Part shown: piece after piece, positions 1-7,521 of the stretch
Layout: every line of letters starts with the position of its first letter
How positions within the stretch are numbered: position 1 is the stretch's first letter
Origin: Pseudomonas kribbensis
GTDB lineage: Bacteria; Pseudomonadota; Gammaproteobacteria; Pseudomonadales; Pseudomonadaceae
NCBI RefSeq assembly: GCF_003352185.1
Contig: NZ_CP029608.1
Coordinates: 1,674,001 to 1,738,000 of the forward strand
Direction: 5' to 3'
Length of the DNA stretch: 64,000 nucleotides
The notes under the pieces: generated by a model
What the model was told of the DNA's origin: nothing
Seen by the model: only the letters and a program-made list of their open reading frames with translations
Databases searched by the model: none
Made by a program: the position numbers and the translations under genes

Positions 1-595
1 CTACCTCAAGTGGTACGACAAACCGCTGCCTTCGGCCGAGACCCTGTGCCCGAAAACCGTGGCACTGGTGAGTGCCATCCCCAACGTCAAGGGCGCGATG
101 TTCGCGCTGTTGCCGGGCGGCAGCCACTTGAACCCGCACCGTGATCCGTTCGCCGGTTCCCTGCGTTATCACCTGGGCCTGTCGACGCCGAACTCCGACG
201 ATTGCCGGATCTTCGTCGACGGTCAGGTCTACGCCTGGCGTGACGGTGAAGACGTGATGTTCGACGAGACCTATGTGCATTGGGTCAAGAACGAAACCGA
301 ACAGACCCGCGTCATCCTGTTCTGTGACGTCGAGCGTCCGCTGAGCAACCGCCTCATGACCCGCATCAACCGCTCCATCAGCGCCTGGCTGGGCCGCGCC
401 ACCGCACCGCAGAACCTCGACGACGAGCGCGTCGGCGGGATCAACCAGGCCTATGCCTGGACCAAGAACTTCAGCGACCGGTTCAGCGGCGTGGTCAAGC
501 AGTGGAAGCGCCGCAATCCAAAGGCCTACCGTGTGATGCGGCCAGTGCTGGCGGTGGTGGTGTTGACGTTGCTGGGGTATTGGCTGTTTGGTTGA
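1..595 (+). CDS. lpxO: LpxO-type aspartyl/asparaginyl beta-hydroxylase (3' part)
   Basis: The gene enters from the left edge, and codons are open from base 2 to the TGA at 593-595, so only about the last 197 residues are present. The HRD of SHLNPHRDPF and the later YVHWVKNET provide the metal-binding His-x-Asp...His pattern of the Asp/Asn hydroxylase fold (Fe(II)/2-oxoglutarate dioxygenases). A conserved Arg follows in TRVILF. The protein ends in a hydrophobic segment (VLAVVVLTLLGYWLFG) that looks like a C-terminal membrane anchor. LpxO hydroxylates the secondary acyl chain of lipid A at the inner membrane, and the anchor and family fit that role. The missing N-terminus prevents separation from other hydroxylases of the same family, so the symbol is tentative. 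Confidence 0.75.
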   Translation, partial: YLKWYDKPLPSAETLCPKTVALVSAIPNVKGAMFALLPGGSHLNPHRDPFAGSLRYHLGLSTPNSDDCRIFVDGQVYAWRDGEDVMFDETYVHWVKNETEQTRVILFCDVERPLSNRLMTRINRSISAWLGRATAPQNLDDERVGGINQAYAWTKNFSDRFSGVVKQWKRRNPKAYRVMRPVLAVVVLTLLGYWLFG

Positions 596-613
596 GGCTG
601 GATTCAGGCGTGT

Positions 614-645
614 AAAAAAACCGCTCCTTGTGAGCGGTTTTTTTA
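614..645. terminator. Bidirectional intrinsic terminator
   Basis: An A-run, the stem ACCGCTC/GAGCGGT with a 5-nt loop, and a T-run. It lies between the convergent lpxO-like gene and the small minus-strand gene, and its T-run overlaps the stop codon of the latter. Confidence 0.85.
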
Positions 646-822
646 TGAGGGAAAGGTAAAAGACGCGCCGGCGAGAACACCCCCTGGCTCTTCCACTGCT
701 GGATTAGCCAATGTCTCTCTAATTCGGAGTAGCTCCTTTTCAGATAACTCTCCAGAAGAGCGCTTACCTTTGGCCTTTACAAGTTTGGCGTCTGATGCTT
801 TGTTTTCAACGACAGCTTTCAT
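643..822 (-). CDS. Small hypothetical protein (59 aa)
   Basis: No family is recognised. The preferred start is the internal ATG at 822, because GGAGG lies 4 nt upstream of it; a start 21 nt further upstream has no such site. The protein is Lys-rich at the N-terminus (KASDAKLVKAKGKR), has a short charged helix (SEKELLRIRETLANP), and ends with a flexible Gly/Pro segment. There is no signal peptide or membrane helix. It lies 49 nt downstream of the GNAT-like gene on the same strand, so the two are probably cotranscribed. The pairing of a small charged protein with an acetyltransferase-like protein could be a partner pair, but nothing in the sequence proves it. Confidence 0.55.
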   Translation of the reverse strand: MKAVVENKASDAKLVKAKGKRSSGELSEKELLRIRETLANPAVEEPGGVLAGASFTFPS

Positions 823-871
823 GGCACCTCCGGCGTTGATCATTTAATGAGCAGTTGATCCGATACTAGTC

Positions 872-1432
872 TTAGTCAATAGGCTTCACAAGCCGACCCT
901 CTGAGTCGAACTCAAACCCCAGTTGTCTATAAAGTGGTATCACTCCGGGAAGAGGCTCCTGAATTTCGATTTGCTTGCTGCCTACGATTCGTGCGAAGTG
1001 CGTCACGGCAGTCAAGGCAAATGTTGCGATTCGGCTCTTGAGGGGGTGATCGTTTCCAGGTTTTCCTTCCAGACGCACGATTTTGACTCTCAACCGGCTC
1101 TGATTCGGATTCGCAAAACAGAGTCCGCATAGTTCATGCTCAAACCAGATCGCCAAATCGAATCCCATTTGCTCTCTGGCTTTCCACCTGACAACTTCCT
1201 GCCAGGAGAAATAAGGATCCAGCCATTGTTCGTAGGCGCTCAGTGCCAAAGCGTCGATAGCTTCGAACCGAACTCTGGAGTAATCGACATCCACAATTCC
1301 TTTTTGCTCCAGGTCCTCCTGCAACTTTGCGAAAGTGCTGCCCGCGTACTTCCTGGCTTGTGATCTGTACAGTTGGTACCGCAGATATGTCCGTTCCCTT
1401 GGCATGTGATCTCGCGCATTCCATATCCCCAT
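872..1432 (-). CDS. GNAT-like hypothetical protein
   Basis: A 186-residue protein taken from the ATG at 1432; a TTG nine nt upstream is the alternative, and neither has a clear Shine-Dalgarno. The C-terminal end (IPLYRQLGFEFDSEGRLV) resembles the closing strand and helix of GNAT N-acetyltransferases (typically YxxLGF), preceded by FDLAIWFEHELCGLCFANPN, which could be the beta2-beta3 hairpin. No canonical Q/RxxGxG/A acetyl-CoA loop is evident, so catalysis is uncertain. There is no signal peptide. Base composition is lower in GC than in the flanking core genes, hinting at an accessory origin. The small gene at 643-822 follows on the same strand. Confidence 0.6.
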   Translation of the reverse strand: MGIWNARDHMPRERTYLRYQLYRSQARKYAGSTFAKLQEDLEQKGIVDVDYSRVRFEAIDALALSAYEQWLDPYFSWQEVVRWKAREQMGFDLAIWFEHELCGLCFANPNQSRLRVKIVRLEGKPGNDHPLKSRIATFALTAVTHFARIVGSKQIEIQEPLPGVIPLYRQLGFEFDSEGRLVKPID

Positions 1433-1495
1433 CAATTGCAAACGAGCCTATGCGCCTGCATCCAGCCTGTCGCTAGCGGCCCTTTGCCCAACTCA

Positions 1496-1525
1496 TTGCA
1501 ATCCATGTCGCAGGCTGGTTATAGT
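1496..1525 (+). promoter_or_regulatory. Sigma-70 promoter for the leader/EamA unit
   Basis: TTGCAA at 1496-1501 and TATAGT at 1520-1525 with an 18-bp spacer. Transcription would begin near 1532, giving a ~310-nt leader before the EamA start at 1843. Confidence 0.6.
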
Positions 1526-1581
1526 CGGCGCTCGTGAGTTCTACGGCTCACCTTTCAATCCCTCGAAAAAGATCAGCCCAG

Positions 1582-1740
1582 ATGCCTGCATCCCTCATCA
1601 ACGCGGTAGTCGATTCAGCGGTCAACGCTGGCGTCGTGCCGTGCGGGAATCAGCAGCCTGTGCAGATCAGCCATTACCCCCCACCTGTCAGTAGCACGCC
1701 GGTGTGCGCAGTCGTATCACCGCCGGGCGTTGGCGTTTAG
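1582..1740 (+). CDS. Candidate proline/valine-rich leader peptide (52 aa)
   Basis: A short ORF from ATG 1582 to TAG 1740 in the long 5' leader of the EamA exporter. An in-frame GTG at 1534 would be essentially leaderless. The peptide has about 12 Val and 9 Pro in 52 residues, two Cys, an internal HYPPPV and a C-terminal SPPGVGV. Poly-Pro and PPG are known ribosome-stalling sequences. Third positions are only moderately GC-rich (about two thirds) and no good Shine-Dalgarno precedes the ATG, so translation is not certain. Its main interest is regulatory: the PPPV codons are complementary to the ribosome binding site of the next gene (see the adjacent regulatory feature). I recall similar small Pseudomonas proteins but cannot confirm it here. 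Confidence 0.45.
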   Translation: MPASLINAVVDSAVNAGVVPCGNQQPVQISHYPPPVSSTPVCAVVSPPGVGV

Positions 1741-1837
1741 GGCTGATCAGCGTTTTCTGCTGACCCCTGTGCCCGCCTGAAAAAACCTACTGAATTTCAG
1801 CTTCGGCTGAGTTGGCTATTTGCCTGACTACAGGTGG
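1681..1837 (+). promoter_or_regulatory. Anti-SD/SD pairing and alternative hairpins upstream of EamA gene
   Basis: CCACCTGT at 1681-1688, spanning the second and third Pro codons and the Val codon of the leader's PPPV, is a perfect 8-nt complement of ACAGGTGG at 1830-1837, the Shine-Dalgarno region of the exporter. Between them lie repeated complementary pentamers: GCTGA at 1742, 1759 and 1806, and TCAGC at 1747 and 1797. These allow mutually exclusive stems, including a CAGC-TTCG-GCTG tetraloop hairpin at 1798-1809. No T-run follows, so a translational rather than terminator-based switch is inferred. Confidence 0.45.
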
Positions 1838-1842
1838 TATTC

Positions 1843-2706
1843 ATGTTTGTCCTTTCGAAAAAATCCGCGCTCGCGGCGGCGTCCACGAGCCTGTTCGTTC
1901 TGCTGTGGAGCAGCGGGGCGATCTTCTCCAAATGGGGGCTGGCCCACGCTTCGCCCTTTGCCTTTCTGCTGATCCGTTTTGTGATTGCCCTGTGCGGGCT
2001 GGTGCTGCTGGTGCCGTTGCTCAAACTGAAACTGCCCAAGGGCGGCCGGCCGATGCTGTATGCGATGGCTACCGGAGTGGTGCTGTTGGGCGCTTATCAG
2101 ATCTTTTATCTGCTGGCGCTGGACCTGAAAGTCACCCCCGGGGTGATGGCGACCATCATGGGCGTGCAGCCGATCCTCACGGTGGTGATCATGGAACGGC
2201 AGCGCTCGGCAAGCCGGATCTTCGGCCTGGCGCTGGGATTGGCCGGTCTGATCATGGTGGTTTACCAGGGCATCGGCCTGGCCGGGATGTCGCTGGCGGG
2301 GATGCTGTTCGGTTTGTTGGCATTGGCGAGCATGACGTTCGGCTCGATCATGCAAAAGCGCATCACCGACAATCCTCTCGGCACGCTGCCGGTGCAGTAT
2401 CTGGCAGGACTGTTGCTGTGCGGGATCTTCGTGCCGTTCCAGCCGTTCCACTTCGAGCACAGTGCCGGTTTCATCGTGCCGGTGTTGTGGATGGGACTGG
2501 TGGTTTCCGTGCTGGCAACGTTGCTGCTGTATCGACTGATCGCCCGGGGCAATCTGGTGAATGTCACCAGTCTGTTCTATCTGGTGCCGGCCGTGACGGC
2601 GGTGATGGATTACCTGATCTTCGGCAACCGCCTGGCCGCGTTGAGCGTGTTGGGGATGCTGTTGATCATCGTCGGTCTGGTATTCGTGTTCCGTAAGTCG
2701 GCGTAA
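1843..2706 (+). CDS. EamA (DMT) family transporter
   Basis: A 287-residue inner-membrane protein with about ten hydrophobic helices in two EamA repeats, beginning LFVLLWSSGAIFSKWGL and ending in LGMLLIIVGLVFVF. These drug/metabolite transporters usually export amino acids or other small metabolites; the substrate cannot be read from sequence. The ATG at 1843 is chosen over the in-frame GTG nine nt upstream because AGGTGG ends five nt before the ATG. Its unusually long leader contains a candidate stalling peptide whose codons can pair with this Shine-Dalgarno, so translation may respond to ribosome stalling. It is convergent with another EamA gene across a shared terminator. Confidence 0.88.
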   Translation: MFVLSKKSALAAASTSLFVLLWSSGAIFSKWGLAHASPFAFLLIRFVIALCGLVLLVPLLKLKLPKGGRPMLYAMATGVVLLGAYQIFYLLALDLKVTPGVMATIMGVQPILTVVIMERQRSASRIFGLALGLAGLIMVVYQGIGLAGMSLAGMLFGLLALASMTFGSIMQKRITDNPLGTLPVQYLAGLLLCGIFVPFQPFHFEHSAGFIVPVLWMGLVVSVLATLLLYRLIARGNLVNVTSLFYLVPAVTAVMDYLIFGNRLAALSVLGMLLIIVGLVFVFRKSA

Positions 2707-2717
2707 CAGCCGCACAT

Positions 2718-2752
2718 AAAAAAGGCCCGGGAGGAAACTCCCGGGCCTTTTT
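2718..2752. terminator. Bidirectional intrinsic terminator
   Basis: Perfect stem AAGGCCCGGGAG/CTCCCGGGCCTT with A- and T-runs, between two convergent EamA genes. Confidence 0.92.
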
Positions 2753-2763
2753 GCATCTGCTGA

Positions 2764-3672
2764 TCAGCGAGTCGCGACTTCTACCGGTTTCACCGCCGCC
2801 GGCTTCAATACCAGCCACAGCGCAATCGCGATCAACACCCCGCCATACACGTGGGCCATCGACAGCGGTTCGTCGAGAAACAGCGCGCCCCACAACACGC
2901 CGAACGGCGGGATCATGAAGGTCACGGTCATCGATTTCACCGGCCCGATGGAGCTCAGCAGGCGGAAGTAAATGATGTACGCAAACGCGGTGCAGCCCAG
3001 ACCCAGGCCCAACAGCGACAGCCAGACATTCCAGCCGCCCCAGCTCACGGGTGGCTGGGTAATGACGCTGTAGCCGAACAGCGGCAGCAGGAACAGCGTC
3101 GCCCCGAGCATGCTGCCCAGCGCCGAAAGACGGCTGTCGAGCCCGCCGGCCTGATCCAGCCAGCGCCGGGCGAGGAAACCGGCGAAACCGTAGCAGGTCG
3201 TTGCGAGCAGGCAGGCAACGGCACCCATCAACAGCGGCAGGTCGAACGCGACCGGGCCGGCGCGGGTCAGCACGCCCACGCCGAGCAGACCAAGGAACAC
3301 CCCGGCCAGTTTGGCCGCCGTGAGTTTTTCACTGAAGAACAACCCGCCGATCAACACGCCCATCAGCGGCGTGGTGGCATTGAAGATTGCAGAGTACCCG
3401 GCCGGCAGCACCTGGGCGGCGACGGAATACAGGGTGGCCGGAACGCCGGAGTTGATCACCCCCAGCATCATCACGGTCTTGAGTTTGCCTTTGAAATCCC
3501 AGCTGATGCGCATCAGACCAAGGATTACCAACAAACCGACGGCCGCAATCGAGACCCGGAAAAAACCGGTCGGAACGGTGCCGATCGCGGGGGCGATGAT
3601 GCGCATGAACAGGAAGCTCGCACCCCAGATCGCAGCCAGCGACAACATGCGGAAAATATCGACAGGGCTCAC
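2764..3672 (-). CDS. EamA (DMT) family transporter
   Basis: A 302-residue, ten-helix membrane protein with two EamA domains. The first helix, LSLAAIWGASFLFMRII, carries the typical WG(S/A)xF signature, and the second half has MTVTFMIPPFGVLWGALFLDEPL. The start is the GTG at 3672, preceded by AAGGAG at good spacing; a longer frame to 3729 reads through that ribosome binding site and is rejected. It is probably an efflux carrier for a small metabolite, substrate unknown. It is convergent with the EamA gene at 1843 but the two are too different to be a recent duplication. Confidence 0.88.
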   Translation of the reverse strand: MSPVDIFRMLSLAAIWGASFLFMRIIAPAIGTVPTGFFRVSIAAVGLLVILGLMRISWDFKGKLKTVMMLGVINSGVPATLYSVAAQVLPAGYSAIFNATTPLMGVLIGGLFFSEKLTAAKLAGVFLGLLGVGVLTRAGPVAFDLPLLMGAVACLLATTCYGFAGFLARRWLDQAGGLDSRLSALGSMLGATLFLLPLFGYSVITQPPVSWGGWNVWLSLLGLGLGCTAFAYIIYFRLLSSIGPVKSMTVTFMIPPFGVLWGALFLDEPLSMAHVYGGVLIAIALWLVLKPAAVKPVEVATR

Positions 3673-3756
3673 GGGCAACTCCTTCCTTGATGGGGACGAG
3701 AGTGTTGCCGAGCGCCCTGACGATGGCAACCGCTAATCGGGCATTTAATTTTCCCG

Positions 3757-5382
3757 TCAGAGCACGAAGCGCGTCACCAGCCCGTTGAGGTCGACGGCCA
3801 GGCGCGACAGTTCCTGACTGGCGGCAGAGGTCTGGGTCGCGCCGGCGGCGGTTTGCGTGGACAGATCGCGGATGGTCACCAGGTTTTCATCGACTTCCCG
3901 GGCCACCAGCGCCTGTTGCTCGGCGGCGCTGGCGATCACCAGATTGCGCTGGTTGATCTGCGAGATCGACGCTGTGATTTTCTCCAGTGCATGGCCGGCG
4001 CTGTTGGCCCGGCGCAAGGTCTGGCTGGCCTGTTCGGCACTGCTTTGCAACGCGCCGACGGTGGCACCGGTGCCTTGCTGGATGCTGCTGATCATCAGCT
4101 CGATTTCTTCGGTGGAGTTCTGCGTGCGCTGGGCCAGCGAACGGACTTCATCGGCAACGACTGCAAAACCACGTCCTGCCTCGCCGGCCCGCGCCGCTTC
4201 AATGGCGGCATTGAGCGCCAGCAGGTTGGTCTGCCCGGCGATGCCGCGAATCACTTCCAGCACCTTGCTGATGTCCTGGGCCTGAGTCGCCAGGCCCTCG
4301 GCCTGTTCGGACGCACCGAGCACCGCGCTGACCAGTTCCTGAATCGAACTGATGGTCTCACTGACCTGCACATGCCCGTGTTTGCTGTCCTCGTTCGAGG
4401 CTTCGGACGCTTCGGCGCTGGACACCGCGTTGGCCGCGACTTCATCCACCGCCGTGCTCATCTCGGTGACGGCCGTGGCGGCCTGTTCGATCTGGTCGTT
4501 CTGCTGTTGCAGGCCGCGAGTGCTTTGCTCCATTACCGAACTCATTTCTTCAGCGGCGGAGGCCAGCTGTTGGGCCGACTCGCTGATACCGCGAATGGTC
4601 GAGCGCAGATTGCCCTGCATCTCGGCCAGCGCGGTGAGCAATTGCGCCGCTTCATCGCGGCCGTCGCTGTCGATGCGGCCGCTGAGATCGCCGGAAGCAA
4701 TCCGCCGGGCCACATTCAACGCCTGATTGATCGGCGCGGTGATGCTGCGGGTCAGCAGCCACGCCAGCAGCAATGTGGCGATCAGGGCGATGACGATGAT
4801 TGTCGCGACGATCCACAGTGACTGCTGATAGGTCGCGGCTGCGGATTTTGCGGCGGCATCGGCGCCTTGCTGATTGAGGGTGATCATTTGCTCCAGGGTC
4901 TTGTCGAGCACGCTGCCCTGAGGCGCCAGTTCAGTGGTCAGCCGCGTGTAGGCCTGATCGTTCTGCCCGGCGTCGATCTGTTTGATGATCTGGTCGAGGA
5001 TGCTCAGGTACTTGGCGGTGTCGGCACCCAGACCTTCCAGCATCGCCCGTTCCTGATCGTTGGCGAGCAGGACTTTGTGATCGTCGAGGCGCTTGAGCAA
5101 CTCCTGACGTTGCGCCGTGAGAATGCCTTTGCTGCGTTCGCGCACAGCGGCCTGGGTACTGGTGATCAGGCGCAGGGATTCGAGGCGGATGCTGGCGATG
5201 TTCGCCGCTGCGTCATGAATGCTTTCGATGCTGGGCATCCACGATTCTTCGATCACCGCTGCGCTTTCACGCAGGGCCTTCATCTGGCCCAGACCGAACA
5301 GGCCAACCACCATCAGCAGACCGGCCAGAACGGCAAAACTCAAACTGGCGCGCAAACCTATGCGCAGATTCCGGATAGACAT
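3757..5382 (-). CDS. Methyl-accepting chemotaxis protein
   Basis: A 541-residue chemoreceptor. The order is TM1 at about 12-33, a helical periplasmic sensor at about 34-185 of the four-helix-bundle (4HB_MCP) type, TM2 at about 187-210 ending in [14 protein letters not shown] to about 263, and a long cytoplasmic coiled coil. The conserved signalling hairpin tip is present ([20 protein letters not shown], then [14 protein letters not shown]). There is no C-terminal CheR/CheB pentapeptide; the protein ends in VTRFVL. The start is the ATG at 5382, with GGAG upstream; a TTG one codon earlier is less likely. The ligand is not predictable, and no che genes are nearby. Confidence 0.93.
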
Positions 5383-5799
5383 CAATGTGCTCCTTGAACG
5401 TTGAGAAAGAGGGCGTCCTCGTGGGCCGAGGATCTTGTTGTGAGGCGGGTGATGGCGGGCTGTATATCAAAGTGCCATCACCTTGGTAAGGTCACTGCAC
5501 AGTCAAGGTCACAGGCAATGGACAGGAATACGCAGGTCGGGCAAAGCCGCGGAATAGAGATGTCACGGCTTGATTGGATCCGAAACCCAGAGAATTCGCG
5601 GGCTGGCGCCGAACGGCGGGAACGACCGGTTGATGTGTTTGCTGACCGAACGGTCGATTAAAAAAACTTTGATAAAAACTGTGTCGCTGTACAACGCCGT
5701 CGCGGATTTGGCAGAAATTACGCTTCTCCTGTCCCCGGTTCCGTGGCTAAGCTCAGGCCTTCGAGCACAGATTCTTCAATTCCCGCAGAGGTCTCATCT
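5383..5799. other. Divergent intergenic region upstream of MCP and aceK
   Basis: About 417 bp without a convincing gene; short ORFs here lack ribosome binding sites and coding character. It contains a perfect palindrome, GACCGAACGGTC, at 5644-5655, followed by an A-rich stretch. This could be an operator for a dimeric repressor acting on aceK, but no promoter could be placed with confidence. Confidence 0.4.
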
Positions 5800-7521
5800 A
5801 TGCCGCAGCAATGGCCAGCCACCGACATCGCCCGCATGATCCTCGATGGCTTTGACGATTACCGCGAGCATTTCCGGCGGATCACCGACGGCGCTCGGGA
5901 GCGCTTCGAGCAGGCGCGCTGGCAGGACACGCAAACCGCGTCGGCGGCGCGGATCAACCTCTACGAAGACAAGGTCGGCGAAACCGTCGCGCGCCTGCGC
6001 GAGCATTTCGAGGCAGACACGCTGATGGAAGTCAGTTGCTGGCCGCTGGTGAAAAGCGCCTACATCAGCATCATCGACCTGCGCTTCGACGATGAACTCT
6101 CCGAGACCTGGTACAACTCGATTTTCTGCGGCCTGTTCAGCCACGATCTGATCAGCGACGGCTGCATGTTCATCCATACCACCCGGCCAAGCCTGCGCCG
6201 CGCCCGGGCTGCGCAAACCCGCACCTACAAACCGCAAGGGCAGTTGTCGGGCATGCTCGCGAGCATTTTTGCCGATTACCGATTCAGCGAGGATTACGCC
6301 GATCTGCCCCGGGATCTGCAGCGCCTGGAAGCGCAACTGCGCGAGAACCTGCCGGACTGGGTGTGCAAGGACCCGGAACTGAGCGTCGAGCTGTTTTCCT
6401 CGGTGCTGTACCGCAACAAGGGCGCCTATCTGGTGGGGCGCATCTACACCAACGACGATCAGTGGCCGCTGGTGATTCCGCTGCTGCACCGCGAGGGACG
6501 GGGGATTCAGATTGACGCGCTGATTACCGACGAAGCCGATGTGTCGATCATCTTCTCGTTCACCCGTTCGTATTTCATGGTGGATGTGCCGGTGCCGGCG
6601 GAATTCATCGGTTTCCTCAAACGCATCCTGCCGGGCAAGCACATCGCCGAGCTGTACACCTCGATCGGCTTCTACAAGCACGGCAAATCCGAGTTCTATC
6701 GTGCGCTGATCAACCACCTGGCCAATACCGACGACCAGTTCATCATGGCCCCGGGTGTGCGCGGCATGGTCATGAGCGTGTTCACGCTGCCGGGTTTCAA
6801 CACCGTGTTCAAGATCATCAAGGACCGCTTCTCGCCGTCGAAGAACGTCGACCGCGCTACGGTGATCGAAAAGTACCGACTGGTGAAAAGCGTCGACCGC
6901 GTAGGGCGCATGGCCGATACCCAGGAGTTCGCCGACTTCCGTTTTCCGCTGAGCAAATTCGATCCGGCGTGTCTGGCGGAATTACTGGAAGTTGCACCGT
7001 CCACGGTGTCGCTGGAAGGCGAAACCGTGCTCATCCGCCACTGCTGGACCGAACGCCGGATGACCCCGCTGAACCTGTATCTGGACAACGCCAACGAAGC
7101 CCAGGTACGCGAAGCGCTGGAGGACTATGGGCTGGCGATCAAGCAACTGGCGGCGGCCAACATCTTCCCCGGCGACATGCTGCTGAAGAACTTCGGCGTC
7201 ACCCGCCATGGCCGGGTGGTGTTCTACGACTATGACGAAATCTGCTTCCTGACTGAGGCCAACTTTCGCCACATCCCGGCACCGCGCACGCCGGAGGATG
7301 AAATGGCCTCCGAGCCTTGGTACTCGATCGGGCCGCTGGACGTGTTCCCCGAGGAGTTTCCGCCGTTTCTGTTTGCCGACTCGGCGCAGCGCAAATTGTT
7401 CGATCAGTTGCATGGCGAGCTGTACAACGCCGATTACTGGAAGGGCTTGCAGGAGGCGATCCGGGCGGGGAAGGTCATCGATGTCTTTCCGTATCGGCGC
7501 AAGGGCCTCGATAACGAGTGA
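5800..7521 (+). CDS. aceK: Isocitrate dehydrogenase kinase/phosphatase
   Basis: A 573-residue protein, close to the 578 of E. coli AceK. AceK reversibly phosphorylates isocitrate dehydrogenase and so directs carbon into the glyoxylate bypass during growth on acetate or fatty acids. Recognisable blocks are [20 protein letters not shown], matching the ATP-binding region, then [17 protein letters not shown], and the kinase-like catalytic stretch [20 protein letters not shown] with its Asp residues. The ATG at 5800 is chosen because AGAGG lies nine nt upstream and homology begins at [11 protein letters not shown]; the frame is open further upstream without such support. It is monocistronic and separated from aceA/aceB, as is usual in Pseudomonas. 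A REPIN follows the stop codon. Confidence 0.96.

Follow-up and report, generated by a model that had tools for sequence, protein, structure and literature searches.

A 52-residue leader ORF upstream of an EamA-family exporter gene in Pseudomonas kribbensis probably acts as a translation attenuator: slowing of ribosomes at polyproline would uncover the Shine-Dalgarno (SD) sequence of the exporter; we put the probability of this reading at roughly 0.68. In the window, i.e., the whole 64,000-nucleotide stretch of contig NZ_CP029608.1 that was analyzed, the leader occupies positions 1582 to 1740 and ends with TAG. The exporter, a 287-residue protein of the DMT type (Pfam EamA, E 3.4e-21), occupies positions 1843 to 2706, with a gap of 102 nt between leader stop and exporter start. 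Both lie on the + strand, as do all elements described below unless stated otherwise. A sigma-70-like promoter at 1496 to 1525 (TTGCAA-18-TATAGT), predicted by a consensus scan with 9 of 12 matches, is the probable source of a transcript carrying leader and exporter. The leader contains two Pro clusters, PPPV at 1678 to 1689, the predicted stall site, and PPG at 1720 to 1728, close to the stop codon. The original prediction had drawn attention to the HYPPPV codons (1672 to 1689), to an 8-nt complementarity between leader and exporter SD, and to the exporter ATG at 1843, and all three were confirmed: CCACCTGT (1681 to 1688), within the codons of Pro34, Pro35 and Val36, is the exact complement of the SD, ACAGGTGG (1830 to 1837).

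Comparison and folding show that the Pro-Pro-Val codons pair with the SD in the free transcript, which would keep it shut. Folding models indicate that a ribosome occupying the first Pro cluster would cover this anti-SD, releasing the SD for translation of the exporter, and it is likely that a ribosome in this position unlocks the gene. The lock is made of polyproline codons and would therefore remain open for the longest time under conditions of slow polyproline translation, e.g., when EF-P activity is low, prolyl-tRNA is scarce or ribosomes are slowed. Polyproline is expected to slow the ribosome since stalling at PPP and its relief by EF-P are established, as described in PMC4176338; stalling on this leader, its dependence on EF-P and the signal to which it responds are what we infer.

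The leader is a conserved coding ORF tied to the exporter. Its peptide was matched in 84 of the 149 genomes of the genus, and the exporter lay just downstream in all 84 (at one locus, L068, as a partial match). The exporter itself was present in 97 of the 149, and the fetched upstream regions of 14 genus loci with no leader-peptide match each had a polyproline ORF at the same place, with a single Pro cluster at one of them (L209). The peptide matched no family in Pfam or NCBIfam, and its named protein relatives are hypothetical or uncharacterized proteins. A profile of the peptide gave 26 matches in 248 genomes of the family, nearly all within Pseudomonas, and in 369 genomes of the class it retrieved the leader itself and four marginal matches. 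As the profile finds little beyond the genus, the peptide alone misses the wider family, which a search with the exporter recovers (140 matches among 298 genomes of the family, in 10 of 19 genera). At the class level, the exporter search of 274 genomes returned just the window's own protein and one 35% relative.

We compared 229 distinct upstream regions, all except one from the family of the window, after removal of 7 duplicates from 236. The set omits loci L085 to L104 and L106 to L115 and the 80 named-genome loci L116 to L195, and identities for L271 to L346 were computed on approximately the first 100 residues. A polyproline ORF ending 76 to 122 nt before the exporter start was present in 228 of the 229 regions, the sole exception (L270) belonging to a distant class relative. 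At least two Pro clusters were found in 221 of the 229 regions, compared with 2.1% of 4000 random window positions, and at least two clusters including PPP in 213, compared with 0.4% of such positions. The cluster starts are usually 12 to 14 codons apart (163/221). Some leaders carry PP only, from which a weaker stall is expected. At L071 (G132) and at L105 and L210 (G276), the leader is out of frame at a C-rich run of Pro codons and the anti-SD nucleotides are retained, which may reflect either real decay or sequencing errors at a homopolymer.

Purifying selection on the peptide was evident in 124 QQ-type leaders, with a dN/dS of 0.41 overall, 0.27 over the QQPxxISHY motif and 0.08 over PPPV. 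In the window, the corresponding QQPVQISHY codons span positions 1651 to 1677; within the main clade, nothing else ahead of the Pro cluster is conserved as well. Its location directly before the predicted stall would suit a ligand-sensing arrest peptide, in which the exit tunnel reads QQPxxISHYPPP of the main clade and the ribosome stalls only in the presence of one specific small molecule, possibly the substrate of the exporter. We consider such a mechanism improbable, as most other genera lack the QQPxxISHY motif yet have both polyproline and anti-SD, and 96 of the 228 leaders do not belong to the QQ type. Outside this type, the leaders appear unrelated save for their prolines (for example, LAPPPVSPPAGYAPPPPAAA and CAPPPVTPRAGTPPPPPRA). 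Since leaders beyond the main clade share little else, the signal is more likely to be a general slowing of polyproline translation than a ligand read by the peptide.

The choice of Pro codons is also constrained. CCT represents 7.2% of Pro codons in the long ORFs of the window, a usage calculated from 34 ORFs of which at least one is a spurious antisense ORF displacing the exporter itself. In the leaders, the final Pro of the first cluster is encoded by CCT in 184 of 221 cases, versus 28 of 221 for the last cluster; for leaders of exporters with less than 70% identity, the figures are 62/97 and 15/97, respectively. The Val codon after the first cluster is GTC in 165 of 172 leaders, and synonymous change at P35 and V36 is nearly nil in the main clade (pS of 0.06 and 0.08, versus 0.39 overall). 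CCC and CCU have been reported as slow in diproline synthesis (PMC8129111), and slow decoding may thus be an additional or rival reason for CCT. That CCT is kept for its speed and not for pairing is nevertheless very unlikely, because the second cluster mostly uses other codons, and because co-variation with the SD and the frame-shifted and non-Pro versions of the element, described below, need pairing.

At the window locus alone, the pairing is mildly better than chance, which is weak evidence, and it is the comparison between loci that decides. After synonymous recoding of the window leader, an equal or better duplex was obtained in approximately 3% of 200 draws (p 0.03). With the same codon null, p was ≤0.05 at 69 of 228 loci and above 0.05 at the other 159. 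Few loci pass because CCN codons resemble an anti-SD anyway, and we rejected this RNAduplex null as a test, any CCN run pairing with GG-rich SDs. The 159 loci that fall within the codon null are in line with the idea that Pro codons look like an anti-SD by chance. This idea is scarcely credible in light of the conservation of the rare codon CCT and of the following swap test with its controls.

In 43 representatives picked by peptide similarity, helices between each leader and its own SD had a mean energy of -16.8 kcal/mol, versus -14.9 kcal/mol for swapped partners (z -6.0; p 2e-4, the minimum attainable with 5000 permutations). Thus, the expectation that orthologues would keep the peptide and its complementarity to the SD was not refuted, the leader being conserved and co-varying with the SD. 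The co-variation was localized to 36 nt around the first cluster (z -5.6). The controls were not significant, with z -1.1 and p 0.14 for the masked leader, z +1.2 for the second cluster and z +0.5 for the reversed leader. Coarser sets of 23 and 16 representatives were chosen by hand; the smaller one gave z -5.4 in the swap test, and the masked control yielded p 0.09 and 0.08 in the two sets, respectively.

Individual base pairs changed on both sides. A G in the leader was associated with a C in the SD (Fisher p 2.4e-8) and a T in the leader with an A in the SD (p 2.5e-4). The pair beside the core occurs as C-G, G-C, A-U and U-A (L208, L215, L298, L307), and on the other side an A-U pair is flipped to U-A in L239, L297 and L307. 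In a tree of 42 sequences and 98 residues, displayed with no support values, the flip of L239 stands against its near sisters L299 and L205. The first flanking position forms a Watson-Crick pair in 47 of 50 leaders lacking the QQ motif. In the main clade the base beside CCTGT is usually mismatched (C/T in 87 and C/A in 16 of 175), and a leader T is opposite an SD T at 30 main-clade loci. The RNA element can also be found off the Pro codons, as Ala-Ser-Ser-Val (ASSV) in L330 and in another reading frame in L229; in L205 and L240 it is encoded with Ser (PSV) and includes one G.U pair. On comparative grounds the RNA pairing is almost certainly real, and the data support its maintenance by selection across 10 genera.

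No run of seven pairs was present near the first cluster at 26 of the 228 loci. At 11 of these 26, there is a local hairpin instead, in which a CCTGT-like strand immediately precedes the SD. Within part of one genus (L236 to L238, L302 to L304, L306, L309, L313, L333 and L335), the anti-SD-like strand forms a short hairpin directly 5′ of the SD and the polyproline leader is kept. In another clade (L218, L283, L284, L286, L288, L294 and L295), the SD is AAAGGTGGC and the Pro clusters do not contain CCTGT, both sides of the pairing having changed together.

We then consider RNA structure. The minimum-energy fold of positions 1527 to 1860 includes the predicted anti-SD helix, with seven of its eight pairs (1681 to 1687 with 1831 to 1837); its z score is -2.07, and 3 of 100 shuffles were as good. 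The leader strand continues with TCAGTAG (1688 to 1694), which pairs with CTACTGA (1787 to 1793) and lengthens the helix. An RNAalifold consensus of 85 main-clade relatives contains all eight SD pairs and a second block, CAGTAG:CTACTG, with some compensatory A-T to C-G cells. It also includes a local hairpin between leader stop and SD (TTCAGC-TTCG-GCTGAG, 1796 to 1811), of which just the CAGC/GCTG core (1798 to 1801 with 1806 to 1809) is paired in the window's own fold. The GCTGA/TCAGC stem that had been proposed as an alternative structure refining the switch therefore exists, but as a local hairpin nested within the long-range helix. Another short hairpin, TTGCCTG-ACTA-CAGGTGG (1820 to 1837), detected in a scan as a terminator-like stem, is able to mask the SD and competes for it with the long-range helix. 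A search of window positions 1 to 6000 against Rfam gave six weak matches, all below the gathering score and none in the leader region. The motif GATCAGC recurs before the leader start (1570 to 1577), within the leader (1666 to 1674) and after its stop (1743 to 1750), where it occurs as the self-complementary GCTGATCAGC; alternative stems among the three copies are possible.

Ribosome occupancy was modeled by folding each RNA with a ribosome-sized stretch held unpaired and reading out the openness of the SD. In the free RNA, openness was below 0.10 at 28 of 36 loci and at least 0.10, i.e., poorly hidden, at 8. A ribosome near the first cluster opened the SD more than a distant one at 30 of the 36 loci, with no gain at 6. 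In 26 loci, which were chosen after the 36-locus scan had been seen, openness was 0.03 in the free RNA, 0.31 with a ribosome on the first cluster, 0.10 on the second cluster and 0.04 at the stop codon. Changing CCT to CCG raised that of the free RNA to 0.25 in these loci and to 0.15 in the window. For the window, the values were 0.00 free, 0.20 at PPP, 0.02 at PPG and 0.00 at the stop. The claim that a ribosome at PPP frees the SD thus held in folding models (0.20 in the window; 0.31 versus 0.03 free in the 26 loci), and the accompanying one, that a stall at the C-terminal SPPG would suffice, was not supported by the window model (0.02). The small opening in the window is explained by the hairpin at 1820 to 1837, which also masks the SD, and the effect of the first cluster there is present but modest.

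A stall at the second cluster might hold the open state if the next ribosome queued over the anti-SD. With a queued ribosome 10 codons behind, modeled openness rose to 0.31 in the 26 loci, and queueing rescued opening from the second cluster in the majority of other lineages; in the window it did not (0.03), and the idea is unsupported there. A bolder proposal, which we offer tentatively and consider unlikely, is that the whole family senses polyproline elongation capacity, i.e., EF-P activity or prolyl-tRNA supply. Two Pro clusters approximately one ribosome apart would let a strong downstream stall queue the next ribosome on the upstream Pro codons that form the anti-SD, and queueing would gate the switch; the exporter could then remove a compound that slows proline decoding, such as a proline analogue.

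The models are compatible with plain translational coupling as well, as a modeled ribosome over the anti-SD opens the SD whatever codon it is on. Any ribosome crossing the leader would then open the helix and the exporter would be made in step, with prolines that slow the ribosome but sense nothing. Coupling is a doubtful explanation, as it accounts neither for the preservation of two Pro clusters in 221 of the 229 regions, in a peptide that otherwise drifts, nor for the retention of polyproline at loci whose anti-SD is no longer located in the Pro codons (L229 and L330).

In Escherichia coli devoid of EF-P, strong pauses are described at only a small share of PPX motifs (PMC4140641), so that stalling is not assured for this leader. 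Residues before the motif matter, His and Arg promoting and Cys and Thr suppressing stalling according to PMC4176338. The window leader has a His two residues ahead of PPP, and several other lineages have Cys or Ala immediately ahead of it.

Pro codons that double as an anti-SD are new, the principles of attenuation being already known from the mgtL, toiL, CutF and Erm leaders. Translation attenuators of the Erm type similarly combine a leader ORF with a sequestered SD that is released by a stalled ribosome, but their arrest depends on a drug. We know of none with a polyproline design. The original prediction had held that no such system was described for EamA genes. In the open-access full text searched, we found no paper on EamA with a leader peptide and ribosome-binding site, nor on EamA with an upstream ORF in Pseudomonas, and a paper on small proteins of P. 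stutzeri does not mention EamA in its main text. That claim thus stands within this literature, but systems close to it in principle have been published, and we compare them here with the leader.

In CutF-CutO of Rhodobacter (PMC9973294), an upstream ORF (uORF) has a C-terminal Pro-rich motif, and a slowed ribosome opens an SD-hiding stem-loop. CutF is an exported copper sensor with a copper-binding motif, and its Pro motif alone caused no stall in the test reported. In contrast, the window leader has its anti-SD inside the Pro codons and lacks a conserved Cys copper motif. In main-clade leaders, position 21 is Cys in 93 of 124 and position 42 in 48 of 124; no common Cys motif was seen across the leaders of the upstream-region set, and no CXXXC-type motif is conserved. 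In toiL-topAI of E. coli (PMC12121999), a ribosome stalled on the uORF alters a structure masking the downstream ribosome-binding site, and general translation stress is sensed. The stalls that it senses are induced at several codons by antibiotics, and the abstract mentions no polyproline anti-SD. In mgtQ-mgtB of Salmonella (PMC8092293), a short ORF before a transporter gene also opens a structure masking the ribosome-binding site, but it acts through destabilizing acidic codons and its Pro codon is not required.

Two further systems act on transcription. In mgtL-mgtA of Salmonella (PMC6460261), a short leader ORF with Pro codons precedes a transporter gene, and loss of EF-P raises the downstream mRNA in a manner dependent on the leader prolines. 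The mgtL prolines alternate, and transcription elongation is controlled via alternative stem-loops; in contrast, the prolines of the window leader follow one another directly in two clusters, and the exporter's anti-SD is formed by their codons. The uORF CruR of Bordetella (PMC9426467) precedes a transporter operon and has an arrest motif with Pro at its C-terminus (RAPP); it differs by its copper-sensing CXXC motif and by Rho-dependent termination. Slow translation of our leader could likewise alter Rho-dependent or intrinsic termination before the exporter, with SD pairing being secondary, given that Pro-motif leaders of this type are in print (PMC6460261, PMC9426467) and that translational repression can feed Rho termination (PMC12121999). 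We regard transcriptional control as distinctly improbable because it is specifically the SD that co-varies with the leader, and because the terminator-like match that a scan found in the + strand gap is the SD hairpin itself, with no canonical terminator.

If attenuation at the SD is correct, the exporter would be tied to the capacity for proline translation via codons that serve both as peptide signal and as RNA lock, and the leader would be a natural, compact reporter of EF-P and prolyl-tRNA status. It would also offer one of the few examples where comparison can separate the constraint on the peptide from that on the RNA in the same codons, the RNA element staying paired after sliding off the prolines and the prolines staying when the element slides. 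A previously unnamed small ORF would thereby gain a likely function across 10 genera.

The exporter scored under the cut-off of TIGR00950 in an NCBIfam scan, and a PDB sequence search returned no relatives. We looked to the neighboring genes for a clue to its substrate; 5 of 10 neighboring ORFs had Pfam matches, with no shared theme. Between the upstream gene and the leader are ORFs of 66 and 189 residues (643 to 843 and 872 to 1441, both on the - strand), with no match in Pfam or NCBIfam. A polyproline ORF before a neighboring transporter gene (start at 3672, - strand) is out of frame within a coding gene, and we attribute it to chance. A second transporter-like ORF, EamA-like by eye, is convergent to the exporter (2764 to 3729, - strand); the two are separated, near 2718 to 2752, by a GC-rich hairpin with T residues behind it. 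The ORF at 3757 to 5385 (- strand) resembles, by eye, a methyl-accepting chemoreceptor.
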